Source: a virus
DNA length: 21,614 nt
Virus record (IMG/VR): IMGVR_UViG_3300008050_004543
Span: 1 to 21,614 of that record
Direction: 5' to 3' (one strand)
Within the stretch, counting starts at the first letter, position 1, and each line of letters opens with the position of its first letter. This document shows positions 3,477-21,614 of the stretch, piece by piece. The notes under the pieces are model-generated. The model ran no database searches. It was given only the letters and a program-made list of their open reading frames with translations, and was not told the DNA's origin. The position numbers were made by a program, and so were the translations under genes.

Positions 3477-3482
3477 CCTGTA

Positions 3483-5082: not shown

Positions 5083-5189
5083 ATAAAAAGTTAAAAAAGC
5101 ACGGATATATCTGGGACGGAGGATCTACTGCAGAAGAACTCCTCAAGCAGTATACTGATCAGTGGAAATCTATTCTGTACCGGAAATGA
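5079..5189 (+). CDS. 36-residue coupled small ORF between radical SAM and sulfotransferase
   Basis: ATG at 5079 overlaps the radical SAM stop as ATGA. The ORF's own stop overlaps the ATG at 5186 of the sulfotransferase, again as ATGA. The peptide begins MNKKLKKHGYIWDGG and ends WKSILYRK. It is basic at both ends, has Tyr at 10, 25 and 34 and Trp at 12 and 29, and has no Cys. Two exact stop/start overlaps argue that it is translated, and it fills what would otherwise be a gap of about 100 bases. It could be a substrate peptide of the flanking enzymes, a small accessory subunit, or only a coupling ORF. No family is recognised. Confidence 0.55.
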   Translation: MNKKLKKHGYIWDGGSTAEELLKQYTDQWKSILYRK

Positions 5190-5998
5190 AACAATTCTTC
5201 TATATAGCTGGATTACCCAGAACGGGTAGTTCGGTGTTGTGTGCGATTCTGAATCAGAATCCAGACTTTCATATCAGTGCAACATCACCACTTTCAAATA
5301 TCATGTATCGGGTTGTAGATGATTGGCAGAATAACATCAGTCAAACCAAGACGTATAGTCATCCGGATCAATTGAGAAATCTTTGGTTGCATATCCAGGA
5401 AGGTCTGTATGCGCATGTGGATGAACAGATCGTTTTTGATAAAGGACGGGCTTGGCATATGAGGGATCCTTTGGAATCACACAGACAGATAGTCGGTTCG
5501 GAGATGAAAGTGATCTGTCTCGTAGACAGCATTCCGGACATCTTAGCGTCATTTATTCATCTGATAGATCGGAGTGGAGATTATAATAATTTTATAGATG
5601 ATCAACTTCGCCAAGAAGGAGCAATCATTTCTACAGAGAATCGTTGTAAAGTTATGTTGAGACAAACGACAGAATCAGTGGGTTGGTGTTTTCAACACCT
5701 CAAAGATAGCTACTTCAGTTCAAATAGGAAAAATCTACAACTGATTGAACGGACGGATTTAGTAACCAAACCAGAAGAGATTCTAAAAGAACTCTATCGG
5801 TTCATTCAGCTGGATTATTTTCCGCATAAGTTTTCTGGTTTGGTGGCTACTCATGAAGAGAACGATCAGAAAGTCTATGGGGTTAAGAATCTTCATAGGG
5901 TTGAACCACAGCTGTATCAGAGACGTTACATTGCACAAGATGTTTTAGGGGTAGAACTCCATGAAAGGTTTTCCGGAAAAGAGTTCTGGAGAGTTTGA
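5186..5998 (+). CDS. Sulfotransferase
   Basis: I chose ATG 5186 because it overlaps the stop of the 36-residue ORF (ATGA) and starts just before the first strand. A GTG at 5162 would add eight residues. The protein has 270 residues. FFYIAGLPRTGSSVLCAIL (residues 4-22) is the 5'-phosphosulfate-binding loop of PAPS-dependent sulfotransferases, with PRTGSS at 11-16. The second binding segment is VICLVDSIPDILASF (~109-123). Ser122 is kept, but the usual Arg at its start is replaced by Asp114 or Ser115, which is odd. The enzyme would transfer sulfate from PAPS to a hydroxyl on a sugar or tyrosine. The cassette context fits decoration of a virion glycan or a peptide. Confidence 0.78.
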   Translation: MKQFFYIAGLPRTGSSVLCAILNQNPDFHISATSPLSNIMYRVVDDWQNNISQTKTYSHPDQLRNLWLHIQEGLYAHVDEQIVFDKGRAWHMRDPLESHRQIVGSEMKVICLVDSIPDILASFIHLIDRSGDYNNFIDDQLRQEGAIISTENRCKVMLRQTTESVGWCFQHLKDSYFSSNRKNLQLIERTDLVTKPEEILKELYRFIQLDYFPHKFSGLVATHEENDQKVYGVKNLHRVEPQLYQRRYIAQDVLGVELHERFSGKEFWRV

Positions 5999-6036: not shown

Positions 6037-9000
6037 ATGAATACACTTACACAGGATATAATAAAACCGTTTCTGCTCGAACAGACACAGATCAAAAAGA
6101 TCGTGGGGATCTATGCAGGTAGATTTCAACCATTTGGTCCACATCACAAGAAAACCTATGAGTGGATGAAATCAAAGTTTGATGATGCATATATCACGAC
6201 GTCTGGGATTCGAAAACTTCCACGACATCCTTTATCGTTTCGGGATAAAGCCACCCACATGTCTAAAATGGGAATCCCCAAGAGTAAAATCATCAAAGAG
6301 AAGATTCCATATGTGGCAAATAAAACACTCAAGAAGTTTGATTCCAAGACTACAGCCGTTGTGTACATCTTTGGAGAAAAGGACGCAGGACGTCTCATGT
6401 CTGGAAAGTACTTTCAAGATTATAAATCCAATAAAGATAATCTTACCGGATATGACGAACACGGTTACATCTTGACTGCACCACATGTATCTGTGAAAGT
6501 AGGTGGTCAAGAACTCAGTGGGACAGCAATGAGAAACTTACTTGGTTCTGATGCGGATGATAAAACCAAGAAAAAATTATTTAAAAAATTATTTGGTTAT
6601 TACAGCGATGACATGTATAAGATGTTTGTAGATGCATTCGTCAGTGAATCACTTACTGAACTTGGATGGCCTTTAGGGTCCGGACCAACGATTGGTCACG
6701 GTTATCCAAATAAAAAAGAATTAGATAAGTACATGAGTAAGGTTAAAAAGCAAAGAAAAAACACAGACTCAAATAAAAAGTATCAGTTTGATCCCGTCAA
6801 TGAACTTTATTTCAATCGACCAAATACAGCATTCGTATATAGATTTAAGGGTGATTGGATGATGAAAGTCAAAACCAATAAGGCAGTTTATAACATTGAA
6901 TTGGATGGTAGAAACGAAAAACAGGCAAGGGCTTTTGCTAAAAAATATTTAAAGAGAAAGTTTCCAAAAGTTAAGTTGATGGAAGAAGTTACTAAAATCA
7001 AAAAATCAATTGGCGAAGCCGTGGATATTGATGAAGTAGCTGGAGTGATTCTATACACCATGGTGGATGGTCAACCAAGATATCTATTGCTCCGAGATGA
7101 TACTCATTGGTCCTTCCCAAAGGGTCATCTCCAACAGGGAGAATCTCTTCTGGATGGAGCAATGCGTGAAACCTATGAAGAAACCGGGATAGTACCCGGA
7201 GCCGTAGATCCCAAGTTTTTCTATGAGATGTTAGTAAACTTTGGCACTGATGAACAAAGGGTCATTACGCTATTTCTCTCAATGGTTCACACTACAAAGG
7301 TCACTCTCAGCGATGAGCACCAAGAATACAAATGGGCCACGTCAGAAGAAGTGGAAGCTCTAATGGAGCAACCAGATGTGATAAATCTACTCAACAGACT
7401 AGACCGACATTTCATGAAAGCTGAAGATATAAACGTACCAGTAAATGTAGGTGATACTGTATTGGTGGGCAAGTTTAAGAATAAAAAAATAAAGGTCAAG
7501 AGTATAGGTAAAGATAAACATGGGATGCCAACCATTAATGGTAGAAAAGCAACTACATTCAGGATACACAAAAAAGTTAATATTTTTGATGATATAGACG
7601 AAGATTTGATTGAGCGTTTTATCAGTTCATTCGATATGAAAGAATTTCTTGAAGAGTCTTCGACGATCGGATCGATGGGTGGTGGAGTCGTAGATGATGG
7701 ACCTCGATACTGGTGGGGTAATCAGAAGAGTTACAGAACCACCTCAGAAGCAGAAGTTGCCAAACTAGGATGGCGGATTGTAAACTATTTAGTACCTGAG
7801 CAGGAGTTTGAAATCCATGACACGAAATATCCAGATGGTCCAACTGGAGCTGTATCGTACTATCCATCCGGTAAGGTGGGTACCAAAGCTGGTACTGGAG
7901 TGATGAAGGACGTCAGAGGAACTGAGGCCTGGAAGAAATGGGTACAGAATATTAGTCGATCAGTAACACAGTTGGGTTGGACATTTGTAGATTGGATCGA
8001 CGCAGATCTTTCTATCAAACAGACAAAAAATGAACCAGTGGATGAGTTCGATCCTCGGAACGAAGTACCACCGGAAACAGAACCCAAGGGAGAAAAGGAT
8101 CAGCATGGTGAGATGGAAGAACCACCAGATGATCCGGATGCCCCGAATGAACCACACAAGAAAGATCTTTCCGAGCGGGCTCTTTCGGTTGGATGGTGGA
8201 AAAACATTCTGGAACGGGATCCAACTCAAGAGGAAGCAATCTCAGAAGACATCAAACCAGACGTGATCAAGAGTTTTGCGATTCAGGATTCTTTGAATAC
8301 TAAGATCTGGGACGGTGAAAAACTTAAACCACAGATCAGGAAAAAGCTACTAATGATCGGTAAGAACTTTTTTGATGATTTGGAATTAGAACCACAGGTA
8401 AAGCTCCAAGACATTACACTCACAGGAAGTATTTCAAATTACAACTGGTCCAAATTTTCAGATGTAGATCTGCATCTACGGATCGATTTCAGTCAGGTGG
8501 ATGAGGATGAAAATTTTGTAAAGAATTATGTACTGGCGAAGAAAACCATCTGGAACAATAAACATGATATCAACATGTATGGTTTTCCTGTAGAGGTGTA
8601 TGTGGAAAACATCGGTGACACTCACATCGCTTCTGGGCTATACTCTATTCTGAAGGACAAATGGCTGGTAGTTCCCAAGAAGAAAGAATTACAGATTGAT
8701 CTCGAAGACATAGCCACCAAAGCAGAAGGTTATTTAGGATCAGTTTCAACGTTGGAAAAATTAATGAAAGAGGAAAAGTACTCAGAAGTAATCCGGACGG
8801 TGGAAAAGATTCAGGAGAGATTAAAGAGAATGAGAAGTTCCGGATTAGAGCGAGGTGGAGAGTTTTCAGTTGAGAATTTAGCGTTTAAAGCTCTGAGACG
8901 ATCCCCCTTCATTGGTACGATCGTTGATATGAAAACAGCAGCATATGATGCCATGATGACCATGAATGGTACACAGACGGAAGGAACCTTTTCAACGAAT

Positions 9001-10260
9001 TGGTGGAAACAACTTATCACGGAAGGTGGTGCATACGGACATATGGCTCATCCGTTTGATGATTGGGATCTAACATTTAAAGATTTTAAAAATATTATAG
9101 AGATGGGGCTGAGTGGAAACCTCAATCGAGAAGATAATGTGACTGAAAAGCTAGATGGTCAGAATTTAATGATAAGTTGGAAAGGTGGTAACCTCATTAT
9201 AGCTCGAAATAAAGGTCACATCAAGAATGCCGGAAAGACTGCTCTATCCGTGAAAGGAATAGCGAGTATGTTTAGTGGAAGAGGTGAAATAAGTAATGCG
9301 TTCTCCTTTGCTGCAAAGGATCTACAGAAAGCTATAGGAGCTCTATCTAATAAACAGAGAGATAAGATATTCATGAACGGAAGGGCTTGGATGAATCTGG
9401 AAGTACTTTGGCCGGCATCATCAAACGTGATTGATTATGACGTAGCCCAGATTGTCTTCCACGGAGCGCTCGAGTACAATGATGCAGGAACTGTAGTGGG
9501 TCAGGTCAAAGGGAGTGCAAGAACACTCGAAGGAATGATCCGCCAAGTGAACCAGCATATTCAGAAACATTACAAGATAGCTAAACCACAATTTCTGACA
9601 GTTCCGAAGAATCAAGATTTCACAAAGCGGAAAACATATTATTTTAACAAGCTGAAAAAACTTCAAGATACATATGCACTCGCAGATACAGATACTCTAT
9701 CACTGTGGCATCAGATGTTTTGGCAGGAATGGATTATGAATGGAGCTAATCAAACCGATTTCACGAATATCACAAATGATGTATTGGTGAAACTCATGAA
9801 AAGATGGGCATTTGGAGATAAATCTTATAAGATCTCGGACATGAAGAAAGAATTGAGAGATGATCATCCGGAGTTTTTAGCTTGGGCCTTGGCTACGGAT
9901 AAAGTGGATGTTCAAAAGATACAAAAGCAAAATATGAAACCCTTTGAAGTTTTATTCTTTGAGCTTGGAGCTGAAATCCTTCACAGCGTTAGTAATTTTC
10001 TTGCTGTACACCCATCCAAGTCAGCACAGAAGATGAAAACAGCCACAAAGAAAGCAGCAGCTGCGCTGAAAAGGGGAGGAGATCCCAAGAATTTGAAATT
10101 ATTGAAGACTCAGTTAGAAAAGCTACAATCTATCGGTGGATTCGATGCAGTTGTCCCATCCGAAGGATTGGTTTTCAAATATAAGGGGAACACATACAAG
10201 TTTACCGGAGCCTTTGCTCCAGTGAATCAAATCACCGGTGCATTAAAATTTGGCCGATAA
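6037..10260 (+). CDS. Giant multi-enzyme protein: HIGH nucleotidyltransferase, Nudix, Pol-beta NTase and ligase-like domains
   Basis: ATG 6037 gives 1407 residues; a TTG at 5995 is less likely. Domain 1 (~22-200) is a nucleotidyltransferase of the NMNAT/cytidylyltransferase type, with AGRFQPFGPHH (27-37) and SGTAMR (161-166). Domain 2 (~333-458) is a Nudix hydrolase whose box is intact: G363, E369, R377, E378, E381, E382, G384. A small basic SH3-like stretch (~468-512) and a Pro/Glu-rich linker (~665-710) follow. Domain 3 (~740-880) is a Pol-beta-type nucleotidyltransferase, with TGS at 796-798, SDVD ending at D811, and a third acid near E853. Domain 4 (~1000-1407) resembles ATP-dependent RNA/DNA ligases: KLDG (K1038), ARNKG, NLEVLWP (E1122), SEGLVFKY (E1376) and YKFT (K1388). 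About 240 helical residues separate motifs III and IV. Several joints read aliphatic-x-E. Domain identity is strong from motifs; the overall role is inferred to be nucleic-acid or nucleotide end processing. Confidence 0.82.
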   Translation: MNTLTQDIIKPFLLEQTQIKKIVGIYAGRFQPFGPHHKKTYEWMKSKFDDAYITTSGIRKLPRHPLSFRDKATHMSKMGIPKSKIIKEKIPYVANKTLKKFDSKTTAVVYIFGEKDAGRLMSGKYFQDYKSNKDNLTGYDEHGYILTAPHVSVKVGGQELSGTAMRNLLGSDADDKTKKKLFKKLFGYYSDDMYKMFVDAFVSESLTELGWPLGSGPTIGHGYPNKKELDKYMSKVKKQRKNTDSNKKYQFDPVNELYFNRPNTAFVYRFKGDWMMKVKTNKAVYNIELDGRNEKQARAFAKKYLKRKFPKVKLMEEVTKIKKSIGEAVDIDEVAGVILYTMVDGQPRYLLLRDDTHWSFPKGHLQQGESLLDGAMRETYEETGIVPGAVDPKFFYEMLVNFGTDEQRVITLFLSMVHTTKVTLSDEHQEYKWATSEEVEALMEQPDVINLLNRLDRHFMKAEDINVPVNVGDTVLVGKFKNKKIKVKSIGKDKHGMPTINGRKATTFRIHKKVNIFDDIDEDLIERFISSFDMKEFLEESSTIGSMGGGVVDDGPRYWWGNQKSYRTTSEAEVAKLGWRIVNYLVPEQEFEIHDTKYPDGPTGAVSYYPSGKVGTKAGTGVMKDVRGTEAWKKWVQNISRSVTQLGWTFVDWIDADLSIKQTKNEPVDEFDPRNEVPPETEPKGEKDQHGEMEEPPDDPDAPNEPHKKDLSERALSVGWWKNILERDPTQEEAISEDIKPDVIKSFAIQDSLNTKIWDGEKLKPQIRKKLLMIGKNFFDDLELEPQVKLQDITLTGSISNYNWSKFSDVDLHLRIDFSQVDEDENFVKNYVLAKKTIWNNKHDINMYGFPVEVYVENIGDTHIASGLYSILKDKWLVVPKKKELQIDLEDIATKAEGYLGSVSTLEKLMKEEKYSEVIRTVEKIQERLKRMRSSGLERGGEFSVENLAFKALRRSPFIGTIVDMKTAAYDAMMTMNGTQTEGTFSTNWWKQLITEGGAYGHMAHPFDDWDLTFKDFKNIIEMGLSGNLNREDNVTEKLDGQNLMISWKGGNLIIARNKGHIKNAGKTALSVKGIASMFSGRGEISNAFSFAAKDLQKAIGALSNKQRDKIFMNGRAWMNLEVLWPASSNVIDYDVAQIVFHGALEYNDAGTVVGQVKGSARTLEGMIRQVNQHIQKHYKIAKPQFLTVPKNQDFTKRKTYYFNKLKKLQDTYALADTDTLSLWHQMFWQEWIMNGANQTDFTNITNDVLVKLMKRWAFGDKSYKISDMKKELRDDHPEFLAWALATDKVDVQKIQKQNMKPFEVLFFELGAEILHSVSNFLAVHPSKSAQKMKTATKKAAAALKRGGDPKNLKLLKTQLEKLQSIGGFDAVVPSEGLVFKYKGNTYKFTGAFAPVNQITGALKFGR

Positions 10261-11117: not shown

Positions 11118-11489
11118 ATGAAGATACTAAAATATTTTATAATATTCTGTTTTGCTTTATCAATCATAGATGCACAGGATACATTTACACAAGCAGAAGC
11201 GTTAGAGATGATAAAACAACGAGATGCACAATGGGAAGGTAAGATAGAAAAGGCTGATTCATTAATTGCATCACAGAAAGAATTGATTGCTGATTGTGAA
11301 GGTTTAGTAGGAAACTTAGAGGAAACTGCAAATTTAGATTCTCTGCTGCTGAATGCTAAAAGTGCACAAATTAAATTGTTAAAAGCTCGTGACGCAGCTA
11401 ATGAGAAGTTAGTGCAGTTGGTTGAACCAAAATGGTATGAGAACCAATATCTTTGGTTAATAATAGGATTCACCTTAGGTAAGATCTAA
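11118..11489 (+). CDS. Exported coiled-coil protein with C-terminal membrane segment (spanin-like?)
   Basis: ATG 11118 gives 123 residues. The N-terminus MKILKYFIIFCFALSIIDAQ is a signal peptide with a likely cut after Ala or near DAQ. Residues ~22-95 are helical, charged and coiled-coil-like, with one Cys. The C-terminus ends WYENQYLWLIIGFTLGKI, a short hydrophobic segment. Proteins with a signal, a coiled coil and a final membrane segment occur next to lysis genes in some phages, so this may form a pair with the preceding membrane protein. No holin or endolysin is visible nearby, which weakens that idea. The gene ends in a TAATG overlap with the terminase. Confidence 0.7.
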   Translation: MKILKYFIIFCFALSIIDAQDTFTQAEALEMIKQRDAQWEGKIEKADSLIASQKELIADCEGLVGNLEETANLDSLLLNAKSAQIKLLKARDAANEKLVQLVEPKWYENQYLWLIIGFTLGKI

Positions 11490-13075
11490 TGTCTGACATT
11501 AAAAAAGCCATACAGAGAGAGTATGTCAAATGCGTGGAAGAGCCCACTCACTTTCTCCAAAAGTATTCGATAATCCAACACCCCCAAAGAGGAAAGATCA
11601 AATTTGATCTATATGACTTTCAGTCTAAAACGCTCGAAGAGGTGAGAAAGAATCAGTATAGTATAATTCTCAAGTCTAGACAGCTTGGAATCAGTACATT
11701 GACGGCTGGATATAGTTTATGGCTCATGTTGTTTTTCCAAGATAAAAATATTTTAGTCATTGCCAAGGATAAAGGTGCTGCAAAGAATCTGGTCACGAAG
11801 GTTCGTGTCATGTTTCATAATTTACCAACGTGGTTGAAGACTAAGGTGGATGAAGATAATAAATTATCATTTCGACTAGGCAACGGATCTCAGATCAAAG
11901 CAGTTGCTGCTACTCCGGAAGCCGGTCGTTCTGAAGCATTGTCGATGTTGGTATTAGATGAGGCAGCATTTATTCCTGCAGTTGAAACTATCTGGACTGC
12001 AGCACAACAGACCTTAGCAACCGGTGGTCAGTGTATTGTCCTATCCACTCCAAATGGTGTTGGAAATTGGTTTCATAGAATGTGGGTTGATGCCACTGAT
12101 GGTATTAATGACTTTGCATTTATTGAACTACCGTGGCAACGACATCCAGATCGCGATCAAACCTGGAGAGATGATCAGGAGAAGGCATTGGGACCAACCA
12201 AGGCGGCACAGGAATGTGACGCTAACTTTCTCACATCCGGTAATTCCATTATAGATCCGCTAATACTTCAGTGGTACAAAGAGACTCTAGTTAAAGAGCC
12301 AATTGAACGAGCTGGAGTGGATAAGAATCTTTGGATCTGGGACTATCCTGACTATTCCAAGGAATATATTGTTGTAGCTGACGTGGCTCGTGGAGACGGC
12401 TCCGATTACTCTGCAACTCAAATTTTTGAGATAGAATCTCTCGACCAAGTAGCTGAATATAAAGGTCAGTTATCGACTACCGATTACGGTAATTTTCTCA
12501 TTGAGCTCGCTACTAAGTACAATGACGCTCTATTGATTGTTGAGAATAACAACGTAGGGTGGGCCACACTTCAGACAATTATCGATCGTGGGTATAAAAA
12601 CCTATTCTATCAATCTAAAGACCTTCAGTACGTAGATACTGAGCATCACATGGAAAGCAACCGATATAGATCTCAGGATAGAAATATGATTCCTGGATTC
12701 ACGACATCAAAGAAAACTAGGCCGCTCGTGGTTGCTAAAATGGAAGAATATACAAGAGAAAAAATGATCAATATAAGGTCTTCACGACTGGTTGAAGAGC
12801 TTTTTGTATTTATTTATCACAACAGCAGGGCAGAAGCCATGGCGGGATACAATGATGATCTCGTAATGTCTTTCGGTATAGCACTGTGGATCCGTGATAC
12901 AGCCCTGAGGCTAAAAAAAGAAAATGATGACTATCAACGACAAATGTTAGGGTCATTCTTAAATAATAATAATGGTTATGATGAAGGATTCGGTAAGGGT
13001 CAGATCAAACCAAAAGACAACCCCTGGGAGATTGAGATCGAAGGTAAAAAAGAAAATCTTAATTGGCTCCTATAG
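11489..13075 (+). CDS. 17: Large terminase subunit (gp17-like)
   Basis: This 528-residue protein is the packaging motor and headful nuclease. The N-terminal ATPase has an adenine-binding region (~40-60, FDLYDFQ), Walker A at 62-70 (KSRQLGIST), Walker B with D157-E158 (LVLDEAAF), and the coupling motif LSTPNG (185-190). The C-terminal RNase H-like nuclease has D298 (VVADVARGDGSDYS), E352 (IVENNN) and D456/D457 (YNDDLV). The length is somewhat below T4 gp17 (610), with a short N-terminus. It overlaps the upstream gene by one base and is followed within 12 bases by the portal gene. The family assignment is secure. Confidence 0.96.
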   Translation: MSDIKKAIQREYVKCVEEPTHFLQKYSIIQHPQRGKIKFDLYDFQSKTLEEVRKNQYSIILKSRQLGISTLTAGYSLWLMLFFQDKNILVIAKDKGAAKNLVTKVRVMFHNLPTWLKTKVDEDNKLSFRLGNGSQIKAVAATPEAGRSEALSMLVLDEAAFIPAVETIWTAAQQTLATGGQCIVLSTPNGVGNWFHRMWVDATDGINDFAFIELPWQRHPDRDQTWRDDQEKALGPTKAAQECDANFLTSGNSIIDPLILQWYKETLVKEPIERAGVDKNLWIWDYPDYSKEYIVVADVARGDGSDYSATQIFEIESLDQVAEYKGQLSTTDYGNFLIELATKYNDALLIVENNNVGWATLQTIIDRGYKNLFYQSKDLQYVDTEHHMESNRYRSQDRNMIPGFTTSKKTRPLVVAKMEEYTREKMINIRSSRLVEELFVFIYHNSRAEAMAGYNDDLVMSFGIALWIRDTALRLKKENDDYQRQMLGSFLNNNNGYDEGFGKGQIKPKDNPWEIEIEGKKENLNWLL

Positions 13076-13087
13076 ATGAGGTAAAAC

Positions 13088-14881
13088 ATGGCTAGAAACA
13101 ACATATTAGACAGATTAGGTCAATTATTCCGGAATAATATAATTATCCGCAAGACGGATGACAACCGACTAGTCGTAAAAGATCTAGATTTCACCCAGTC
13201 CGGACTCGTGAGTAATTTCGTCGACCGATACACTAAGGTTGTATCCCAAAGTCGAATGGGTAAATATTCATATAATCAAAATGCAAGAAATGCCTATGAG
13301 ATTGCTCGAAATGAGTTGTTTCGTGATTATGAACTCATGGATAGCGATCCAATCATTTCTAGCGCGCTTGATATCTATTCTGATGAATCGCTCATCGATA
13401 ACATTCAGGGAGAAATCCTTTCCATCAAGACCGATAACCCAAAGCTCCACAGCATTCTGCATAACCTCTTCTATGATGTATTAAACATTGAATTCAATCT
13501 CTGGTCATGGATGCGTAACCTGACTAAATATGGAGATTTTTATCTATTGATGGACATTATTGATAAATACGGTGTGGTAAATATAAAACCTCTGTCACCA
13601 TATGAGGTGACCAGGTTGGAAGACCACGACCCATCAAATCCAAAGCTCGTTCAGTATGAACTTCGCGACGATCCAACCAAAAGTACACAACAGGGTGGGG
13701 CCACTAGATTATATGAAAATTATGAAATAGCTCACTTCCGCCTACTCAGTGACAGTAATTTCCTCCCATATGGAAAAAGTACCCTTGAGGGTGCTCGTAG
13801 AGTGTGGAAACAATTGACTCTGATGGAAGATGCCATGATGATACACCGGATCATGAGAGCTCCTGAAAAGAGAGTCTTTAAGTTGGATATTGGTAATATA
13901 CCACCAAACGAAGTCGATAACTTCATGCAAAAGATAATTCAAAAGATGAAGAAGATTCCAGTGATCGATCAGCAAACAGGCGAGTACAATCTCAGATATA
14001 ATGTTGAATCTGTTACTGAAGATTATTTTCTACCCGTACGTGGAGGAGACTCAGGAACTGAAATTGAAACATTACCCGGACTGACCAATGACAATGCCAT
14101 CGATGATATAGAATATCTGAGAAACAAACTCATGGCAGCATTGAAGATCCCTAAGGCGTTTCTTGGATACGAAGAAGGAATCGGATCTAAAGCTACTCTG
14201 GCAGCAGAAGACGTAAGGTTTGCTCGAACGATTGAGCGGTTACAGAAAATACTCTGTAGTGAACTCACCAAGATAGCTATCGTGCATCTGTATGCACAAG
14301 GTTTTGACGATACCGACTTATTAGATTTTGATCTCGAACTGACAAATCCATCGATGATTCACGAACAGGAGAAGCTTGAACTGCTGACTCAGCAGGTGGA
14401 TATCGCGAACACAGCCATGGATAATAAATTATTTTCCCGGGAATGGGTATATGATAACATCTTTGACATGAACGATCAGGATAAGAAAGTTATGTTTGAT
14501 GGGCTCATTGAAGATCGAAAACAAGTATTCAGGATGGAACAAATTGAGACTGAAGGCAATGATCCAGCAGAAACAGGTGCCGCAGCTGAAGACATGGAAG
14601 AGGATGTTGGTGAATGGGGTGGATCCGAGAAAGGACCAAATCTTCCAGACCTGGATCGTGGACGTTCAACGTCACAAGATACCAAAGATGCTACCAAGTA
14701 TGAAAGAGAGCGATGGGGCAAACGCGAATTTAAGGGTGGATCTCCACTGTATCCTGGAAAGGGAGCTACAGCTGTAAAGAAAGAGGGACTACTAGCGTCA
14801 CTGAAAGAAAAGTTTGGACCAAATGATGTAGACTCAGGTATTCTGAATGAGAACTCTCTTTTAAGTGACGAAAAGGAGTAA
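13088..14881 (+). CDS. 20: Portal vertex protein (gp20-like)
   Basis: This 597-residue protein has GAGG at 13078-13081, 6 bases before the ATG. It would form the dodecameric ring at the packaging vertex, through which DNA enters and leaves and on which prohead assembly starts. Recognisable segments are YSYNQNARNAYEIARNEL (~61-78), DSDPIISSALDIYSDES (~85-101), and the later LRNKLMAALKIPKAFLGYEE, all typical of T4-type portals. The C-terminal ~110 residues are a Glu/Asp- and Gly-rich tail (AEDMEEDVGEWGG) that lengthens it beyond T4 gp20 (524). The terminase-portal adjacency is tighter than in T4, where tail sheath and tube genes lie between them. Confidence 0.93.
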   Translation: MARNNILDRLGQLFRNNIIIRKTDDNRLVVKDLDFTQSGLVSNFVDRYTKVVSQSRMGKYSYNQNARNAYEIARNELFRDYELMDSDPIISSALDIYSDESLIDNIQGEILSIKTDNPKLHSILHNLFYDVLNIEFNLWSWMRNLTKYGDFYLLMDIIDKYGVVNIKPLSPYEVTRLEDHDPSNPKLVQYELRDDPTKSTQQGGATRLYENYEIAHFRLLSDSNFLPYGKSTLEGARRVWKQLTLMEDAMMIHRIMRAPEKRVFKLDIGNIPPNEVDNFMQKIIQKMKKIPVIDQQTGEYNLRYNVESVTEDYFLPVRGGDSGTEIETLPGLTNDNAIDDIEYLRNKLMAALKIPKAFLGYEEGIGSKATLAAEDVRFARTIERLQKILCSELTKIAIVHLYAQGFDDTDLLDFDLELTNPSMIHEQEKLELLTQQVDIANTAMDNKLFSREWVYDNIFDMNDQDKKVMFDGLIEDRKQVFRMEQIETEGNDPAETGAAAEDMEEDVGEWGGSEKGPNLPDLDRGRSTSQDTKDATKYERERWGKREFKGGSPLYPGKGATAVKKEGLLASLKEKFGPNDVDSGILNENSLLSDEKE

Positions 14882-16095: not shown

Positions 16096-16401
16096 ATGGG
16101 TCGATACAGAGCAGATTCAACTGATAATACAAAATCAATGCCAAAGCAGATACCGGTAAAGTCATTCGGTACGGCTATTGCACCGGCAGCAGAAGCAGAG
16201 GTCGAGAGAGCCAGCTATGTAATAGTAAATGTAGAACATGCTACTAAATATGAATTTTTATATGAATCTGGTGGTACGTATGTAGATTATGGAATAGTGG
16301 CAGCTGATGGTCCTTTAAGAATAAACATTAATCCTATAGCTTGGAAAGGTGGAGCAGGTACGACTGGTCACGTATCTTTCGTATATCGAGGAGGAGCATA
16401 A
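16096..16401 (+). CDS. Small beta-rich phage protein, unknown function
   Basis: This 101-residue protein has a strong SD (AGGAG, 16084-16088), 7 bases before the ATG. The N-terminal ~25 residues are polar and probably disordered (MGRYRADSTDNTKSMPK). The rest alternates hydrophobic residues and turns (ASYVIVNVEH, YEFLYESGGTYVDYG, GHVSFVYRGGA), as in a small beta-sandwich. No signal peptide, Cys or catalytic motif is present. It overlaps the prohead protease start by one base (TAATG). A head decoration or minor structural role would fit the position. It is not assigned to a family. Confidence 0.72.
   Translation: MGRYRADSTDNTKSMPKQIPVKSFGTAIAPAAEAEVERASYVIVNVEHATKYEFLYESGGTYVDYGIVAADGPLRININPIAWKGGAGTTGHVSFVYRGGA
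16389..16394 (+). promoter_or_regulatory. Perfect SD that fixes the prohead protease start
   Basis: AGGAGG lies 6 bases before ATG 16401. The in-frame ATG at 16341 lies 60 bases upstream, inside the preceding gene, and has no such site. Confidence 0.8.
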
Positions 16402-17003
16402 TGCATAAACAATTACTAGTGGATTATATGCCATTTGAAATATCTGCACACAAGATCAATGAATCCATTCAAAAGAATAATGGCAAATTGATCGTAAAAG
16501 GAATTCTGCAACGTGCAGGAGCTCAAAATCAAAATGGACGCATCTATCCAAGAGAAATCCTACAGAGAGAAGCCTCGCAGTACACTGACACTCAGATAAA
16601 AGAGCGAAGAGCTCTAGGTGAGTTAGATCATCCAGACAGTTCAGTAGTCAATCTACAAAATGCATCTCATAATATTACTGAAATGCACTGGGACGGAGAT
16701 GATCTGTTGGGTACCGTAGAGGTGCTAGGAACACCCAGTGGGAACATTTTAAAAGAATTATTCAAGTCGGGAATCAAGTTAGGAATCTCATCTAGAGGAT
16801 TGGGTTCCGTTAAGGAAATCCGTGAAGATGATGCTGTAGAGGTGCAAGATGATTTTGAACTCATAGCATTTGACTTTGTCTCTAACCCATCCACCCACGG
16901 AGCTTTTATGTATCCGATGAATGAGGGCACAGATAGATCTAAACAGATTGAAAAGTGGTCAGGTGTCGATGGTATCATCAATGATATCATGAGGGGCGAT
17001 TGA
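16401..17003 (+). CDS. 21: Prohead core protease (gp21-like)
   Basis: This is a 200-residue serine protease of the T4 gp21 type (herpes-assemblin-like fold). The catalytic His is H77 in LGELDHPDSS. The nucleophile is S130 or S131 in LGISSRGLG. VKGILQRAGAQNQNGRIYP (32-50) and FELIAFDFVSNPSTHGAF (152-169) are typical family segments. In T4 this enzyme matures the prohead, cutting scaffold, capsid and internal proteins after (L/I)xE. The family length is usual. Here it lies just upstream of many proteins with aliphatic-x-E sites, which are its probable substrates. It ends in a TGATG overlap with the next gene. Confidence 0.93.
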   Translation: MHKQLLVDYMPFEISAHKINESIQKNNGKLIVKGILQRAGAQNQNGRIYPREILQREASQYTDTQIKERRALGELDHPDSSVVNLQNASHNITEMHWDGDDLLGTVEVLGTPSGNILKELFKSGIKLGISSRGLGSVKEIREDDAVEVQDDFELIAFDFVSNPSTHGAFMYPMNEGTDRSKQIEKWSGVDGIINDIMRGD

Positions 17004-17368
17004 TGGCGTCTATGTATAAAAGACAGATGCTCGAGTTTCACGACGGTCTATCAGAGATTCGTCCAAAGAAAAAGCCTTTAGTAAAAAAGCCACCAGCTAC
17101 AGAACAGCCGCCTAGTGTGCTTGATAATCTGATCAATGAAATCAATTCCATGGAATCAACTCAGCTGAGGAACGAAGTCAGTAAGGATAAACTGATTGGC
17201 GGGCAGGGTACCAGAAAAGGCAAGCTCATGCTATATCAAAGGGCTGATGGCAACTTTTATATGACGTTGAAAGGTAAAGAAGCTGAAATGGATGCTGGAT
17301 TAGTTAAAAATAGAAGCGATGCAATTAAAGCCGCTACCATGTTTGCAAAGATGATCAATGCCAGCTAA
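17003..17368 (+). CDS. Small phage protein, unknown function
   Basis: ATG 17003 overlaps the prohead protease stop (TGATG); 121 residues. The N-terminal third is basic and Pro-rich (RPKKKPLVKKPPATEQPP) and probably disordered. The C-terminal part (~55-121) looks like a small alpha/beta domain: GKLMLYQRADGNFYMTLKGKE, then a helix ending AATMFAKMINAS. There is no membrane segment. It overlaps the next gene by 11 bases, so the two are translated together. A minor head or core role is inferred only from neighbours. Confidence 0.72.
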   Translation: MASMYKRQMLEFHDGLSEIRPKKKPLVKKPPATEQPPSVLDNLINEINSMESTQLRNEVSKDKLIGGQGTRKGKLMLYQRADGNFYMTLKGKEAEMDAGLVKNRSDAIKAATMFAKMINAS

Positions 17369-18176
17369 ATCAAAAGCTCAGCAACGTTTCATGGGTATGG
17401 TTCATTCGTACAACAAGGGCGACATGAAAGATGCACCAGCTTCCGTGAAGAAAGCCGCAAAGGGGATGACCAAGAAGTCAGCAAAAGATTTTGCATCTAC
17501 GAAGCATAAGGGGAAACCTGAGCACGTTGCTGAAGCTCTAAGAAGACTGATCAGGCAGGAAATCCGAGCATATAATGAAGCTATAAGTAAAAATGACATA
17601 CAAGATCTTGCTATTGATTACTTAGGTGCTATGGGGCAAGTAGCAAGAGTAAGTAAAAGTAAATACCAGCAGTGGGCAAAAGGTTTAAAGAGTAGCTACA
17701 ATACAAAACAAGCGAAAGATGCTTTGATCTCACTAACTTCTCAAACTGGTGTTGCAAGTAGGATAAATAAAAGTAAATCTGATTCGTTTATGAAAAAACA
17801 TCTAAATGAATCCGTAAATGAAGCAAAAACGATCAATGTAGAGCCTAATTGGGAAGGCTTATATCGATTTATGATGCATATGAGAAAAGGCGATAATGCG
17901 GCATTTGTTCGAGTTACTAGAAAGATGGGCGCTGATTGGAAAAAATTAGAGCAGATGGCACAGAAGAAGCAGTGGTATGTTAGAGGTGATTTTTCTGAAT
18001 CCGTAAATGAAAAAGTAGCAAATCCATTTTCACAACATCTCAGGGATGCACAGGAAGAAGTAGAATATATGATATCACACCACTCGGGTGCAGAAGAAGA
18101 AGGCGTTTATGATAAACCCAAACAAGCAATAAAATTTTTACAAGTAGCCCAGAAAGCACTGGGCAAGATAACATAG
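17358..18176 (+). CDS. Modular basic protein: DUF3008-like N-terminus plus joined small modules
   Basis: This is a 272-residue protein. Residues 1-56 (MPAKSKAQQRFMGMV ... FASTKHKGKPEHV) match the DUF3008 family, a short basic protein found in bacteria and phages. A leader-like helix follows (EALRRLIRQEIRAYNEA, ~59-75). Three small modules come next, ending with LNESVNEA (~150) and FSESVNEK (~213). The two joints share 15 identical bases (GAATCCGTAAATGAA), and the same words appear again in the last gene of the window. The second module holds NWEGLYRFMMHMRKG and WYVRGDF. The joints contain aliphatic-x-E|(A/S/K), which a gp21-type protease could cut. The function is unknown; I read it as a head-packaged modular protein. 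Confidence 0.72.
   Translation: MPAKSKAQQRFMGMVHSYNKGDMKDAPASVKKAAKGMTKKSAKDFASTKHKGKPEHVAEALRRLIRQEIRAYNEAISKNDIQDLAIDYLGAMGQVARVSKSKYQQWAKGLKSSYNTKQAKDALISLTSQTGVASRINKSKSDSFMKKHLNESVNEAKTINVEPNWEGLYRFMMHMRKGDNAAFVRVTRKMGADWKKLEQMAQKKQWYVRGDFSESVNEKVANPFSQHLRDAQEEVEYMISHHSGAEEEGVYDKPKQAIKFLQVAQKALGKIT
17808..17824 (+). repeat. Joint repeat GAATCCGTAAATGAAGC, copy 1
   Basis: It encodes ESVNEA between two modules. The same 17 bases occur at 21500-21516, 3.7 kb away, and the first 15 occur at 17997-18011. A diverged copy (GAATCAATCAATGAAGC) is at 21308-21324. Confidence 0.85.
17997..18011 (+). repeat. Joint repeat, copy 2 (15 bases)
   Basis: GAATCCGTAAATGAA encodes ESVNE at the second joint of the same protein. 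It is identical to copy 1 over 15 bases, while the flanking modules are unrelated. Confidence 0.85.
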
Positions 18177-18185
18177 GAGATAGTG

Positions 18186-18674
18186 ATGGCTAAATTACGA
18201 AGTCTATTAGCTGAAGTATTTGAAGAACATGAAGCACCGATCGATCGCAGAGCGGTAGCAGAAGGAGTATCCCAGTATGGGATCGTTGGCAAGAAACTAT
18301 ACAGCGAACACAACATTATGGAGATCGCTGAACAGCTCGTTAAGATTGCTGAATCGGCACAGACCCACGTACTTTCTGAGACGGATGATTGGTTCGACAA
18401 AGTATCAGTGAACCGGAACATGAAGGCAATGACCGGAATGGTCAAAGAGTTCAAGAGCACAGCTACTGAGTATAAATCGCTATCCGAAAGGTTAGTTGCT
18501 CTGTATGAGGATATGGGTGGAATACTGAATCGGTACTACGACATCCAGGAAGAGCTTGATCCGGTAGGTGATGAAGATGATGATGTTGACAATGATGGTG
18601 ACTCTGATGAGTCGGACGACTATCTGGCAAACAGACGTGATGCTGTCACGAAGGCTGTAGGGAGTGGCAATTAA
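18186..18674 (+). CDS. Conserved marine T4-like phage protein with acidic tail
   Basis: ATG 18186 follows AGGAG (18175-18179) by 6 bases; a GTG at 18183 is unlikely. The protein has 162 residues. The N-terminus MAKLRSLLAEVFEEHEAP is an amphipathic, leader-like helix. The middle is helical (SQYGIVGKKLYSEHNIMEIAEQLVKI, TDDWFDKVSVNRNMKAMTGM). The C-terminus is a very acidic Asp-rich tail (GDEDDDVDNDGDSDESDD). I recall similar proteins in marine T4-like phages without a known role. Acidic helical proteins just after gp21 could be prohead scaffold or core (the gp22 position), but homology to gp22 is not visible. Confidence 0.75.
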   Translation: MAKLRSLLAEVFEEHEAPIDRRAVAEGVSQYGIVGKKLYSEHNIMEIAEQLVKIAESAQTHVLSETDDWFDKVSVNRNMKAMTGMVKEFKSTATEYKSLSERLVALYEDMGGILNRYYDIQEELDPVGDEDDDVDNDGDSDESDDYLANRRDAVTKAVGSGN

Positions 18675-18954
18675 GGAATTTTTATTCTGCTCACTATTGT
18701 TGTGGCAAATAGGAATAATAATCTACATACTGCTGAGTAAATTTTATGGTAAGACACCAAACCAAAATACTAAAATAGTATCAACGTCTGTTGAAAAGTT
18801 ACCATCTAAGAAAAAAATAGAACATGTGGATGTAGTCATGAAGAAAAGCATTATTATGGAAAAACCAAATATTTCAAGTATCAAGAGTGATGAAGAGATC
18901 AGAGGTAAGGTCTCTACACAAAAAGATAAACTGAAACGGCTCAGGAGAAGTTAA
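18664..18954 (+). CDS. Small single-pass membrane protein
   Basis: The frame starts at GTG 18664, just after an in-frame TAG at 18658. It overlaps the previous gene by 11 bases and encodes 96 residues. FLFCSLLLWQIGIIIYILLSKF (~6-27) is one strong membrane helix. The rest is polar and Lys-rich (KLPSKKKIEHVDVVMKKS, KDKLKRLRRS), probably cytoplasmic. The start codon has a poorly spaced SD (AGGGAG, 18659-18664, abutting the GTG), so expression may be low and depend on read-through coupling. The function is unknown; a membrane protein inside the head block is unexpected. Confidence 0.62.
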   Translation: MAIKEFLFCSLLLWQIGIIIYILLSKFYGKTPNQNTKIVSTSVEKLPSKKKIEHVDVVMKKSIIMEKPNISSIKSDEEIRGKVSTQKDKLKRLRRS

Positions 18955-19311
18955 ATGGCAAAGTTAGCAGATTTACTAAATCAGAAAGACTTGGGAAGGG
19001 TCCGGACCATGAAGGATAACCCACCGTTTAAGACGGAACGTCAGCAGATCCAACAGGAACTCAGTGAAGCGGATGAAGATTCCGTTGCTGATGCAGATAT
19101 GAAAGCAGCAAAGAAATTAGAGTTCAAGTTAGGGAAGGTGTATTCGACGGTCAATGATAGTGTGAAACTTATCATCAAGAATATATCAGATTTTAATGCT
19201 CCAGGATTAAAGGCTGCATTCTTGGATGGATTGAAAGTCGGAATTAAGGGTGGACAATTTGACGTTAGAGCAGCACAAAAGAGATTTGAAAAGTATTTTA
19301 AGGGACGTTAA
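18955..19311 (+). CDS. Small helical phage protein with candidate protease site
   Basis: This 118-residue protein has AGGAG at 18943-18947, 7 bases before the ATG. The N-terminal ~40 residues (MAKLADLLNQKDLGRV ... QQELSEADED) begin with an amphipathic helix and contain L-S-E|A, a good match to the T4 gp21 cut pattern. The remainder, ~43-118, is a compact helical domain (LGKVYSTVNDSVKLIIKN, FDVRAAQKRFEKYFKGR). No membrane or enzyme motif is present. It ends in a TAATG overlap with the first of the leader genes. If cut at LSE|A, it would release a domain of about 80 residues. Confidence 0.72.
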   Translation: MAKLADLLNQKDLGRVRTMKDNPPFKTERQQIQQELSEADEDSVADADMKAAKKLEFKLGKVYSTVNDSVKLIIKNISDFNAPGLKAAFLDGLKVGIKGGQFDVRAAQKRFEKYFKGR

Positions 19312-19523
19312 TGAAGATCACCAGAGCAGAATTAAAAGAAATGATTCGCGAAGAATTAAATGAAGTTAGTGATCCATACGATGGTGTATACAATAACCTA
19401 CATGATGCAATGGTGGCTGTTCATAATGTCTTTAAAAAACAGAAAGTTGATCGCAAAACAATGGGAGCATTTAGGAAATGGTGGGACCAATTAGATAGGT
19501 TCTATCCACGATCTCCGGAATAA
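19311..19523 (+). CDS. Leader-family small protein 1
   Basis: This 70-residue protein starts at TAATG. The leader MKITRAELKEMIREELNEV is followed by a short helical body (NNLHDAMVAVHNVFKKQKVD, FRKWWDQLDRFYP). The leader is shared with five more genes downstream. LNE|V after the leader is a candidate processing site. I infer an internal head protein. The body has no recognised relatives. Confidence 0.72.
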   Translation: MKITRAELKEMIREELNEVSDPYDGVYNNLHDAMVAVHNVFKKQKVDRKTMGAFRKWWDQLDRFYPRSPE

Positions 19524-19524
19524 T

Positions 19525-19572
19525 ATGAAATTTACTAAATCAGAAAACAGTGGGAGCATCTAGGAAAATAAT
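19525..19572 (+). pseudogene. Orphan leader stub with remnant of the preceding gene
   Basis: ATG 19525 begins MKFTKSENSGSI and stops at 19563. The first seven codons match the leader of the neighbours. The next bases (GAAAACAGTGGGAGCATCTAGGAAA) closely match 19454-19477 of the previous gene (GCAAAACAATGGGAGCATTTAGGAAA). It looks like a decayed or partly deleted copy of a leader gene. Confidence 0.6.
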
Positions 19573-19866
19573 ATGAAAATTACTAAAACAGAACTTAGAG
19601 AAATGATTCGTGAAGAACTGTTAAGAGAAGCCACAGACATAGATAAAATGGCGGATGAAATCATAAATAACGCAAAGCATTATAGCAAAAATATAAAACA
19701 TTATCATTCATTAGACGGGGATGTTTTTGGCGGTATGACTAATGGGCAGAAGAAATATGAAGCAATGCAAAAATTATTAGTTCAAGTAAATAAAGAATTG
19801 ATCAAGTTTGGTAAAACGTGGATAACTAAATATCAGAAATCAGTCGACAGGATAATGAAATCATGA
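19573..19866 (+). CDS. Leader-family small protein 2
   Basis: This 97-residue protein has the leader MKITKTELREMIREELLREA, with L-R-E|A as a candidate cut. The body (~21-97) is helical and polar (DKMADEIINNAKHYSKNI, GGMTNGQKKYEAMQKLL, WITKYQKSVDRIMKS) and lacks Cys or membrane segments. The body is unrelated to that of leader protein 1, so the leader is the only shared part. The stop overlaps the next start (ATGA). Confidence 0.74.
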   Translation: MKITKTELREMIREELLREATDIDKMADEIINNAKHYSKNIKHYHSLDGDVFGGMTNGQKKYEAMQKLLVQVNKELIKFGKTWITKYQKSVDRIMKS

Positions 19867-20099
19867 AACTAACTAAATCTCAACTTAAAGAAATCATTAG
19901 AGAAGAATTAAGAGAAGCCAGCTTAAACAAATATACTAAAGGCGTAGATTCTCAGGACAACGTAGGAAACGTATTTATAACAAAACACGATACCGGTGAC
20001 ATTACATTTCACATAGGAGGAAAGTCAGATTCATCTATTGTATTCAATCGTAGACAAATCAAAGATGTTATGAAAAAACTAAAGAAGATGGGAGCTTAA
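19863..20099 (+). CDS. Leader-family small protein 3
   Basis: This 78-residue protein starts inside the ATGA overlap. The leader is MKLTKSQLKEIIREELREAS, with L-R-E|A. The body (~22-78) appears beta-rich at first (GNVFITKHDTGDITFHIGG) and ends with a basic helix (NRRQIKDVMKKLKKMGA). It is a small alpha/beta domain with no recognised family and differs from its neighbours' bodies. Confidence 0.74.
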   Translation: MKLTKSQLKEIIREELREASLNKYTKGVDSQDNVGNVFITKHDTGDITFHIGGKSDSSIVFNRRQIKDVMKKLKKMGA

Positions 20100-20100
20100 C

Positions 20101-20601
20101 ATGAAACTAACCAGATCAAAACTCAAAGAAATCATTAAAGAAGAACTACAAGAGCTTCAAGAGATCAGTCACACCTTCACTGGAAACACAAAGTTCATGA
20201 AAAAGAAAATGTTGCCTCTGATGAGGAAAGCTGGAATCAAACATGTTAAGGTACGTGATTACGGTGGTGGACAAATGGAAGTAGATTTCGATGTCGATGA
20301 TGAGGTCTTTCAACACTTAAAAGACACACTGAAGAAGAGTCTTGGAAAGGAAGGTGGTTATAAGTGGAAATTAGCAAATTTGAACCTTGAGGGATTAGAA
20401 GAAGAACTCCTGAAAGAGCAGATGGATATCCGATCTGTATACTACAGTATCGGTGACGCAGTAGAAAATTTAATCTGGATCGCAAAGAGAAACACACAGT
20501 ATGAGAAGGATAGAAAATTAAAGGACTTTGGGAACAAATTTTTAAAAATGCTAGATGTGTTGAGGAAACACCTGGATAAGACATACGGAGATTGGGACTA
20601 A
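20101..20601 (+). CDS. Leader-family protein 4, two modules
   Basis: This 166-residue protein has the leader MKLTRSKLKEIIKEELQELQE. Module 1 (~22-98) is alpha/beta: KKMLPLMRKAGIKHVKVRDYGG, QMEVDFDVDDEVFQHL. Module 2 (~101-166) begins with EELLKEQ, itself a leader fragment, and continues with the same body as the next gene (MDIRSVYYSIGDAVENLIW ... TYGDWD). The protein therefore looks like a fusion of a leader, a first body and a leader-plus-body copy whose leader start has been lost. Confidence 0.75.
   Translation: MKLTRSKLKEIIKEELQELQEISHTFTGNTKFMKKKMLPLMRKAGIKHVKVRDYGGGQMEVDFDVDDEVFQHLKDTLKKSLGKEGGYKWKLANLNLEGLEEELLKEQMDIRSVYYSIGDAVENLIWIAKRNTQYEKDRKLKDFGNKFLKMLDVLRKHLDKTYGDWD
20401..20601 (+). 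repeat. Tandem duplication, copy 1
   Basis: 201 bases, from GAAGAACTCCTG to the stop codon, match copy 2 at 177 of 201 positions by my count (about 88%). The first 59 bases are identical. The offset is 239 bases, so the copies lie in different frames and in different genes. Similarity stops abruptly upstream of the leader remnant. Confidence 0.9.
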
Positions 20602-20840
20602 TGAAGATAACTAGATCAGAACTCAAAGAGATCATCCGGGAAGAACTCCTGAAAGAGCAGATGGATATCCGATCTGTATACTACAGTATCGGTGACGCGA
20701 TAGAAAATTTACTCTGGGTCGCGAAGAGAAACACGCAGTATGAAAAGGACAGAAAGCTAAAGGACTTTGGGAACAAATTTTTAAAAATGCACGATATGTT
20801 GCAAAAGCATCTGGATAAAACCTATGGAGACTGGGATTGA
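20601..20840 (+). CDS. Leader-family small protein 5
   Basis: ATG 20601 gives 79 residues; a TTG or other start at 20592 lies upstream in the previous gene and lacks the leader alignment. The leader MKITRSELKEIIREELLKEQ runs straight into the body MDIRSVYYSIGDAIENLLW, which ends TYGDWD. The body differs from module 2 of the preceding protein at six residues, mostly conservative. The stop overlaps the next start (TGATG). It is helical and charged, with aromatic residues, and its function is unknown. Confidence 0.76.
   Translation: MKITRSELKEIIREELLKEQMDIRSVYYSIGDAIENLLWVAKRNTQYEKDRKLKDFGNKFLKMHDMLQKHLDKTYGDWD
20640..20840 (+). repeat. Tandem duplication, copy 2
   Basis: This is the second copy of the 201-base unit. 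Here it follows a complete leader. Most of the 24 differences are synonymous, so both copies have been kept under protein-level selection since duplication. Confidence 0.9.
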
Positions 20841-21614
20841 TGAAGATCACAAAGACACGACTTGAACAGATCATCCGGGAAGAACTTAAACGATACAAAG
20901 AAACCGCTACCGAGGCAATCTTTGATCCCAATGAATTTAAGGTGATCTACAGAGAAGTTCAAGGCTCACTTCACGAGAATCCAGCCGCCATGGCAGCCGC
21001 TGCAATGGCTGCAACTCAACTGAGAAACCAACAGGGCAAGCAGATTAAAGCCACGACTGCATTGAATGATAAATCACACACTCAACACGATAAAGCCAAG
21101 AGTATGTTCCAACGCCTGAAGGACAAATTCAGTGGTAAGAAAGAATCTGTAGTAGATGAAGGAAAATTAAGTTCTCAAATCAAAAAGGCGGTAATGATAG
21201 CAATACAGATGAGTGGTAATATGACAGGAGCTACTGATAAGATTGAAAAGATTAAAAAGGGGTTATCCAAAGATAAAAAAGTAGCAGACGCACTTCGTCT
21301 TGCAAATGAATCAATCAATGAAGCTAAATCGCTTTCTAAGATGAATACTGATGAACTTATCAAGCATTGGGAAAAAGAATCGAAAACTGTAGAAATGATG
21401 AAAGATAAAAAACAAATTGATAAAACTGCATATAGGGTTGAGAGTGGAAAAATAGCAAGAATATTAAATCATTTGGGGGGACTCAAAAAGGATATGAAAG
21501 AATCCGTAAATGAAGCTAAATTTGATGCTACTGGCGTTGATTGGTCTGGTGAAATGATGTGGAAGTGGGTTTCCAAAGCATTAAAAACTGCTGGTATTAA
21601 AGAACTAAAATATA
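20840..21614 (+). CDS. Leader-family protein 6, modular (3' partial)
   Basis: The ATG at 20840 overlaps the previous stop. The frame is open to the window edge (258 codons), so the gene continues. The leader is MKITKTRLEQIIREELKRYKE. The first module has an Ala/Met-rich helix (NPAAMAAAAMAATQLR) and a basic helix (KSMFQRLKDKF). A joint ESVVDEG follows at ~101-107. A helical module ends LANESINEA (~154-162), and another ends MKESVNEA (~219-226). The final visible part is FDATGVDWSGEMMWKW. The joints contain V-D-E|G, I-N-E|A and V-N-E|A. It looks like a packaged polyprotein built from small modules; no enzymatic motif is visible in the part seen. Confidence 0.72.
   Translation, partial: MKITKTRLEQIIREELKRYKETATEAIFDPNEFKVIYREVQGSLHENPAAMAAAAMAATQLRNQQGKQIKATTALNDKSHTQHDKAKSMFQRLKDKFSGKKESVVDEGKLSSQIKKAVMIAIQMSGNMTGATDKIEKIKKGLSKDKKVADALRLANESINEAKSLSKMNTDELIKHWEKESKTVEMMKDKKQIDKTAYRVESGKIARILNHLGGLKKDMKESVNEAKFDATGVDWSGEMMWKWVSKALKTAGIKELKY
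21500..21516 (+). repeat. Joint repeat GAATCCGTAAATGAAGC, copy 3
   Basis: It is identical over 17 bases to 17808-17824 in another gene, and again encodes ESVNEA at a module boundary. The diverged copy at 21308-21324 marks the previous joint of this protein. Confidence 0.85.

Follow-up and report, generated by a model that had tools for sequence, protein, structure and literature searches.

Organization of the 1407-residue protein

We analyzed a 21,614-nucleotide fragment of a marine T4-like virus (IMG/VR record IMGVR_UViG_3300008050_004543, positions 1 to 21,614; hereafter the window), in which one open reading frame (ORF; 6037-10260, plus strand, ATG start) encodes a 1407-residue candidate polyprotein shortly upstream of the genes for terminase, portal and S77 prohead protease. 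An in-frame TTG is also present ahead of this ORF, at 5995. The joints between the modules of the chain, the motif [LIV]xE at these joints, the exchange of modules among relatives, the leaders and an internal start site were all read directly from the sequence (features are collected in Table 1; an arrow marks a proposed cut).

A sequence-only reading of the frame had proposed four enzymes. The Nudix box, the Pol-beta GS..DVD motif, the ligase motifs and a nucleotidyltransferase-type fold were all recovered, and the motif described as HIGH-type proved to read GxHH. The fold of module 1 is of the NMNAT/cytidylyltransferase type, since relatives match PF01467 and the predicted model matches NadM (2r5w, 2qjo); GxHH invariably replaces the expected HxGH (GRFQPFGxHH) in the window protein (6037-6660) and its relatives, and the activity may therefore differ. 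The Nudix region gave a firm Pfam match (1.4e-14) and a Foldseek match to diadenosine tetraphosphate (Ap4A) hydrolases (3.4e-9), and the Pol-beta region matched phrog_36119 (1.7e-45). The ligase motifs KLDG, MNLE, EG(L/I)VFKY and YKFTG, comprising KxDG and downstream nucleotidyltransferase motifs, are kept among relatives; fold matches of this module to Rnl1, Rnl2 and a Palaeococcus ligase were weak (Foldseek, E about 0.02-0.1). Sequence searches of PDB with the module profiles returned nothing useful, including no match of the ligase module to a solved ligase, and Pfam and PHROG searches found no peptidase in the chain.

Structure models of residues 730-1407 and 1-545 had modest mean predicted local distance difference test (pLDDT) scores of 72 and 61, respectively. 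The pLDDT minima of the two models fall at the joints (730-748, 974-1004, 209-224, 236-259, 317-332, 460-474 and 507-545), and some interior loops are likewise low.

A prohead-protease motif marks the module borders

The five sites listed by the sequence-only reading (E208, E327, E540, E737 and E996) all exist and lie at module borders defined by homology, and further border sites are found at E15 (LLE↓Q, the end of the leader), E256 (VNE↓L) and E726 (ILE↓R). Its caution that so loose a motif will match by chance was justified: [LIV]xE occurs 22 times in the protein, 9 of them no more than 6 residues from one of eight borders, which together span 7.4% of the chain, and such raw counts from the window protein alone are weak evidence. 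When A, G or S was required after the motif, four matches were left, three exactly at listed borders and the fourth (E204) four residues off one.

We then drew on relatives. Scans of viral contigs returned at least 578 relatives of the ligase module, at least 178 of the nucleotidyltransferase (NTase) and at least 13 of the Pol-beta module, with up to 80 of each kept, and joint contexts were thinned to no more than 40% identity, leaving 99 from five module families. The sequence-only reading had staked its proposal beforehand on conservation of the joint motifs in homologues, and they were kept: glutamate stands at the border in 86 of the 99 contexts, and [LIV]xE in 77 compared with about 6 expected from shuffles. 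Hydrophobic residues make up 91% at P3, 23% at P2, 44% at P4 and 19-23% at P5-P8. For the NTase, where the site sits a few residues upstream of the module, the position test used a shifted anchor, a variable glutamate next to IKKVV confounding the unshifted one. The L/I/V-x-E motif persists as the modules on either side of it vary; the ligase start GGAYGHM, for example, is preceded by unrelated sequences that end either in [LIV]xE or in KELLLM. In the Mel-JY01 protein (PP395634; WWT39297.1, 639 residues) this border reads NNNIIAE238↓GGLGGHM.

T4 gp21 cleaves after L/I-x-E, and aspartate in place of the glutamate blocks processing in T4 (PMC9026906). The joint motif is this same L/I-x-E, and a cognate S77 protease is encoded in the window; the gp21-like gene that the sequence-only reading had placed at 16401 is real (Table 1). 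In these viruses the gp23-like capsid proteins read QLIDE↓SS or QLINE↓F where T4 has FLTE65↓A at the end of the propeptide.

These data bear on a reading in which the chain is a polyvalent protein of several enzymes that is never cut: the domains would be fused to allow co-regulation or channelling, the protein would be injected or expressed whole, and the joints would be no more than acidic flexible linkers. Polyvalent proteins form a recognized class with 2-15 domains per chain, and N4 vRNAP enters the virion unprocessed (PMC5512222); the disorder of the joints in our models fits linkers as well. A plain acidic linker, however, would not yield a hydrophobic residue specifically at P3, and this reading also leaves unexplained three observations described below, namely the new sites at split-ligase junctions, the single-gene leaders ending at the same residue and the internal start as sole alternative at the ligase border. 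We regard it as unlikely.

Whole modules are exchanged at the joints

Across 154 polyprotein ORFs the chains are mosaics of unrelated enzyme domains. The fused ligase is C-terminal, and the remaining modules are shuffled, gained or lost exactly at the joints. Nudix and Pol-beta modules are often missing in relatives, and kinase (PF13671/Zeta-like), NTN-like and other modules turn up; ParB-like modules were seen by eye in loci L003 and L009, which Pfam did not confirm. L005 and L007 have the KOW-like module at the N-terminus, whereas L010 encodes it as a free gene of 96 residues. The window, L002 and L003 have flanks 98-99% identical, yet whole cassettes differ between WWKNILE↓RDP and QEEAISE↓DIKPD: from ILE↓RDP to ISE↓D the slot holds about 336 residues in L002, a different stretch of about 241 residues in L003 and an 11-residue scar in the window. 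The L033 ortholog reads SLME↓L where the window protein has SLTE208↓L, and continues EPVNE↓GVDTDEVAG with Nudix directly after; compared with it, the window protein has one added module between VNE↓ and Nudix. The joints double as exchange points for whole cassettes. Chance fusion through sequencing error was ruled out, since the long ORFs recur in many independent contigs.

As a separate arrangement, Maribacter phage Molly_1 (L187, 2723-4708) carries Nudix and Pol-beta NTase as separate adjoining genes, with a leader-like MKTGKIKTLIES...ALTE↓ where one gene begins and a comparable element, MKSEDIKSLIES...AITE↓AAKG, within the Nudix gene. A literature text search found no virion proteomics of phage Molly and no paper on phage Mel-JY01.

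Two classes of ligase border

All 111 distinct ligases fall into two classes at their upstream border, 63 with [LIV]xE↓GG and 48 with KELLLM↓GG. The ligase tree needs 14 changes of class, at least 8 of which are forced by well-supported branches. The DNA behind KELLLM is AAGGAG-TTATTATTA-ATG (AAGGAG-TTA-TTA-TTA-ATG) or nearly so, placing a conserved Shine-Dalgarno sequence nine bases ahead of an in-frame ATG. AAGGAG was found in 29 of 32 distinct DNAs of this class compared with 69 of 1303 background Lys-Glu pairs (5%) elsewhere in these proteins (log10 P about -33, a guide only, as related sequences are not independent). Among in-frame internal starts, the resulting MGGAYGHM far outnumbers any other (54 loci: L004, L005, L013 and 51 others); the next, MMTNK, has 5. 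The KELLLM DNA is thus a predicted conserved internal ribosome-binding site and start for the ligase. The E class, to which the window belongs (AAA CAA CTT ATC ACG GAA GGT GGT), is free of such DNA constraint. That E↓GG might be a leftover Shine-Dalgarno sequence (GAAGGAGG) was ruled out for the E class, where the codons are GAA/GAG-GGT-GGA/T and GAAGGAGG-type DNA occurs in 2-3 of 69 distinct DNAs. A border held at the protein level in one class and at the RNA level in the other argues for a need for free ligase.

Split versions of the RNA-ligase-like enzyme occur in 28 loci, a count that includes some overlapping records of one contig. The N-part ORF ends after motif I (...DGQNLMISWR-x), and the C-part lies behind the NTase in another ORF. 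[LIM]xE stands directly before the C-part at 12 of 12 distinct split junctions (LITE↓K, LLSE↓G, LMSE↓G, LIKE↓G, MLNE↓G and KITE↓A among them) and at this position in 0 of 48 distinct unsplit ligases, suggesting that a cut site arises de novo where the ligase is split. In these natural split ligases, of which L010 (2949-5816 and 7773-8501) is one example, proposed cut sites stand before both halves, and no intein was seen.

Both ligase results speak to the idea that [LIV]xE forms part of the opening strand or turn of each module and is kept by descent, with shuffling a few residues upstream. The fixed distance of -1 at the ligase agrees with this. The motif is, however, common to five unrelated modules, P2 is free and P3 varies among L, I and V; moreover, 48 ligases have M instead, and the split ligase gains an internal site that the intact enzyme lacks. 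We consider descent a very improbable explanation.

Leaders and neighbouring genes

In T4 leaders, residues 4 and 7 serve targeting and residues 8 and 10 processing (PMC9026906). The strict leader pattern M-x2-phi-x2-phi-[LIVM]-x-E, which T4 gp24 (MAKINELLRE↓S) matches, was present in 26 of 317 genes from five genomes or fragments compared with about 0.75 expected, and these genes are mostly in head or cargo regions. Counterparts of the leader of the window protein are MNLLTTSIIKPFLLE↓Q in L004 and MNQFIQEIIKPLLKE↓D in L033. The kinase module links leaders to joints: all its complete contexts read E↓G(V/I/K), whether fused (EIKE↓GVNDPG, KVTE↓GVNDPG) or free-standing behind a 10-residue leader (MIKLMDLLNE↓GVRDPG, MVNLKQLLTE↓GVFDKG); the free-standing form is among the 26 genes with the strict pattern. 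Likewise, the paralogues at 20101-20601 and 20592-20840 share LLKE↓QMDIRSVYY and are identical at 54 of 60 residues past the site.

Table 1. Features of the window and of the 1407-residue protein
Position	Strand	Feature	Support or remark
6037..6081	+	N-terminal leader MNTLTQDIIKPFLLE15↓Q, predicted capsid-targeting-like propeptide	Kept in L004 and L033; helix 3-12 in model
6082..6660	+	Module 1 (16-208), NMNAT/cytidylyltransferase-like	GRFQPFGPHH, SGTxxR; C-terminal SLTE208↓L
6661..6804	+	Short helical piece 209-256, ending DPVNE256↓L	pLDDT minimum 236-259
6805..7017	+	Inserted small module 257-327 (LYFNRPN...KKSIGE327↓A)	Absent from L033
7018..7656	+	Nudix (Pfam 337-446) and KOW/SH3-like module 463-525	Ends FLEE540↓SS; weak border FMKAE462↓D between
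7657..8214	+	DDGP module 541-726 (function unassigned) and acidic linker	Capsid-targeting-sequence-like end ALSVGWWKNILE726↓R
8215..8247	+	11-residue scar RDPTQEEAISE737↓D, emptied cassette slot	Comparison with L002 and L003
8248..9024	+	Pol-beta-type nucleotidyltransferase 738-996 (phrog_36119)	Capsid-targeting-sequence-like C-terminus FSTNWWKQLITE996↓GG
9025..10260	+	RNA-ligase-like module 997-1407	Starts GGAYGHM; KLDG, MNLE, EGLVFKY, YKFTG
11489..13075	+	Terminase large subunit	PF03237 6.8e-13; phrog_2
13088..14881	+	T4-like portal gp20	PF07230 2.2e-76
16401..17003	+	gp21-like prohead protease (S77)	PF03420 1.4e-31; phrog_207 7.4e-56; ELDHP and GISSRG motifs
17358..18176	+	Second, smaller modular protein	SVNE↓AK and SVNE↓KV joints; DUF3008 and two small modules
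18183..18674	+	Protein with strict 10-residue T4-like leader	MAKLRSLLAE↓V
19311..20099	+	Three small proteins	Leader of each MK(I/L)T+xxL+E(I/M)IREEL
20101..20601	+	166-residue protein	Leader as in 19311..20099 proteins; internal module after EELLKE↓QMDIRSVYY
20592..20840	+	82-residue paralogue of 20101..20601	Module free-standing right after leader MKITRSELKEIIREELLKE↓QMDIRSVYY
20837..21614	+	Modular protein with leader	SINE↓AK and SVNE↓AK joints; runs off window end

The tandem small proteins at 19311-20840 have near-identical leaders, MK(I/L)T+xxLKEIIREEL, and mostly unrelated bodies. (S)VNE↓AK joints are repeated in smaller modular proteins, in the window at 17358-18176 and 20837-21614 and in L010 at 18770-19339; DUF3008 and an acidic D-x-D-x-D-G-D-x-D motif are exchangeable modules recurring in other PHROG families. 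Upstream of the 1407-residue ORF, 2628-5998 holds glycosyltransferase-like (phrog_1574), radical SAM/SPASM and sulfotransferase genes. Relatives of the portal are those of Mel-JY01 (49%), Flavobacterium phages immuto (46%) and RM378 (34%).

Proposed packaging and release

The polyprotein interpretation of the sequence-only reading is strongly supported at the level of sequence, and we think it probable that the ORF encodes a head-packaged cargo polyprotein that is cut in trans by the prohead protease, its enzymes then being injected. Packaging, cutting, injection and purpose are what we infer from the features above. In the proposed scheme, enzyme modules would be joined in one chain, each after a flexible joint ending in the prohead-protease site L/I/V-x-E↓ and often preceded by a short helix resembling a capsid-targeting sequence. 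Leaders would pull the chain into the prohead core, and as the head matures the gp21-like protease encoded at 16401..17003, the proposed cutter of these joints, would cleave it in trans; the released enzymes would stay inside the capsid until they pass, with the DNA, into the next host. For the KELLLM class, which makes up nearly half of all distinct ligases, the border would instead be served by internal initiation from a ribosome-binding site and start codon within the gene. Judging from domain types, the likely purpose would be an early nucleotide, nicotinamide adenine dinucleotide (NAD) and RNA repair kit against a host defence that depletes RNA or NAD.

Several observations weigh against this proposal. 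[LIV]xE also occurs inside domains, at residues 86, 442, 925 and 1020. The Nudix/KOW border FMKAE462↓D has K at P3 and, because the hydrophobic residue is missing there, is probably uncut. Two related NTase contexts have no glutamate, with RKISKALQKKSP ahead of the NTase, and LR756508 has no ligase site. The leader of the window protein has 15 residues, outside the strict 10-residue pattern, and ends in LLE. The enzyme activities are predictions, with weak fold matches for the ligase and Pol-beta modules and GxHH in the NMNAT motif. Finally, the ligase made from an internal start lacks a leader and may therefore serve the infected cell rather than be packaged.

This last point leads to the alternative that the polyprotein is cut, perhaps by another protease, but stays unpackaged and acts in the infected cell as a late or early enzyme supply. 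Internal-start ligases do not need packaging, and in Synechococcus phage S-CRM01 and Caulobacter phage Cr30 the free-standing Pol-beta relatives have no clear leader and are surrounded by replication or early genes. The genes nevertheless adjoin terminase, portal and protease, in Mel-JY01 too, T4-like leaders are concentrated in this region, and the joint motif is that of the capsid-protein site, which is cut in proheads. Such a role is, in our view, improbable, slightly more so than that of an uncut polyvalent chain and well below that of the packaged cargo.

Relation to known systems

The closest class is that of the polyvalent proteins, large mosaic multi-enzyme phage proteins that were proposed to be packaged and injected and were likened by their authors to RNA-virus polyproteins (PMC5512222). 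Both are large, mosaic chains of several enzymes; polyvalent proteins have an embedded peptidase or stay uncut, whereas no embedded peptidase was found in the window protein, its sites fit a separate prohead protease and leaders recur within the chain. T4 internal proteins and Alt have a short N-terminal leader (hydrophobic 4, 7 and 8, E10), of the kind seen here in the 26 strict-pattern genes, are cut after L/I-x-E, the motif at our joints, and are ejected into the host (PMC9026906). However, each T4 cargo comes from its own gene and has a single leader (Alt being cleaved at either end), and the window system has several cargoes and joints per chain. SPN3US and phiKZ likewise have a gp21-like protease and ejection proteins processed after glutamate; the 14 sites of the SPN3US prohead protease, spread over nine substrates, all take off terminal propeptides and, unlike the proposal here, do not free several enzymes from one chain (PMC10052503).

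NadM and phage NMNAT-Nudix enzymes share an NMNAT-type domain followed by Nudix. NadM has HxGH and ISxTxxR motifs in its NMNAT domain and a Nudix of the ADP-ribose type. The window protein differs from NadM in the proposed cut sites and extra modules between these domains, in a Nudix nearest to Ap4A hydrolases and in GxHH, and we do not class it as NadM. In a survey of viral NAD and ADP-ribose proteins, phage Nudix proteins were typically standalone, save for head-protein fusions (PMC9503650). Polyproteins of eukaryotic RNA viruses and retroviruses also have one chain, short motifs and a viral maturation protease, but the window system belongs to a double-stranded DNA tailed phage, has optional, exchangeable cassettes and shows no homology to them. 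We found no paper in the open library searched combining prohead protease, polyprotein, phage and ejected.

Taken more broadly, the odds slightly favour a plug-in cargo system in a widespread marine T4-like group, with a packaged polyprotein, exchangeable cassettes, internal initiation as a second release route and two-piece enzymes freed by the same sites, which would deliver a mixed RNA, NAD and nucleotide repair kit at infection. If true, this would be a true maturation-protease polyprotein in tailed DNA phages and would explain how many different enzymes are loaded by one targeting and processing route. The loose three-letter motif would then become a tool to list injected proteins from sequence alone: joints would mark where a cargo starts and ends, and could be used to parse hundreds of unannotated viral proteins into candidate injected enzymes. 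It would become possible to test directly, beyond T4 and phiKZ, what phages deliver as infection begins, and the isolated Microcystis phage Mel-JY01 makes this practical.

Two further genes of relatives were noted by eye. A CCA-adding-enzyme-like protein with a leader-like start MIYLSNLIPLNE is encoded in L010 (1225-2961) and G005 (65922-67511), and lies nearby in G001, G005 and G007; it is consistent with an RNA repair cargo. In Mel-JY01 (L206, 22429-23595), a protein with an ADP-ribosyltransferase-like C-terminal region, possibly an Alt-like cargo, adjoins the prohead protease.

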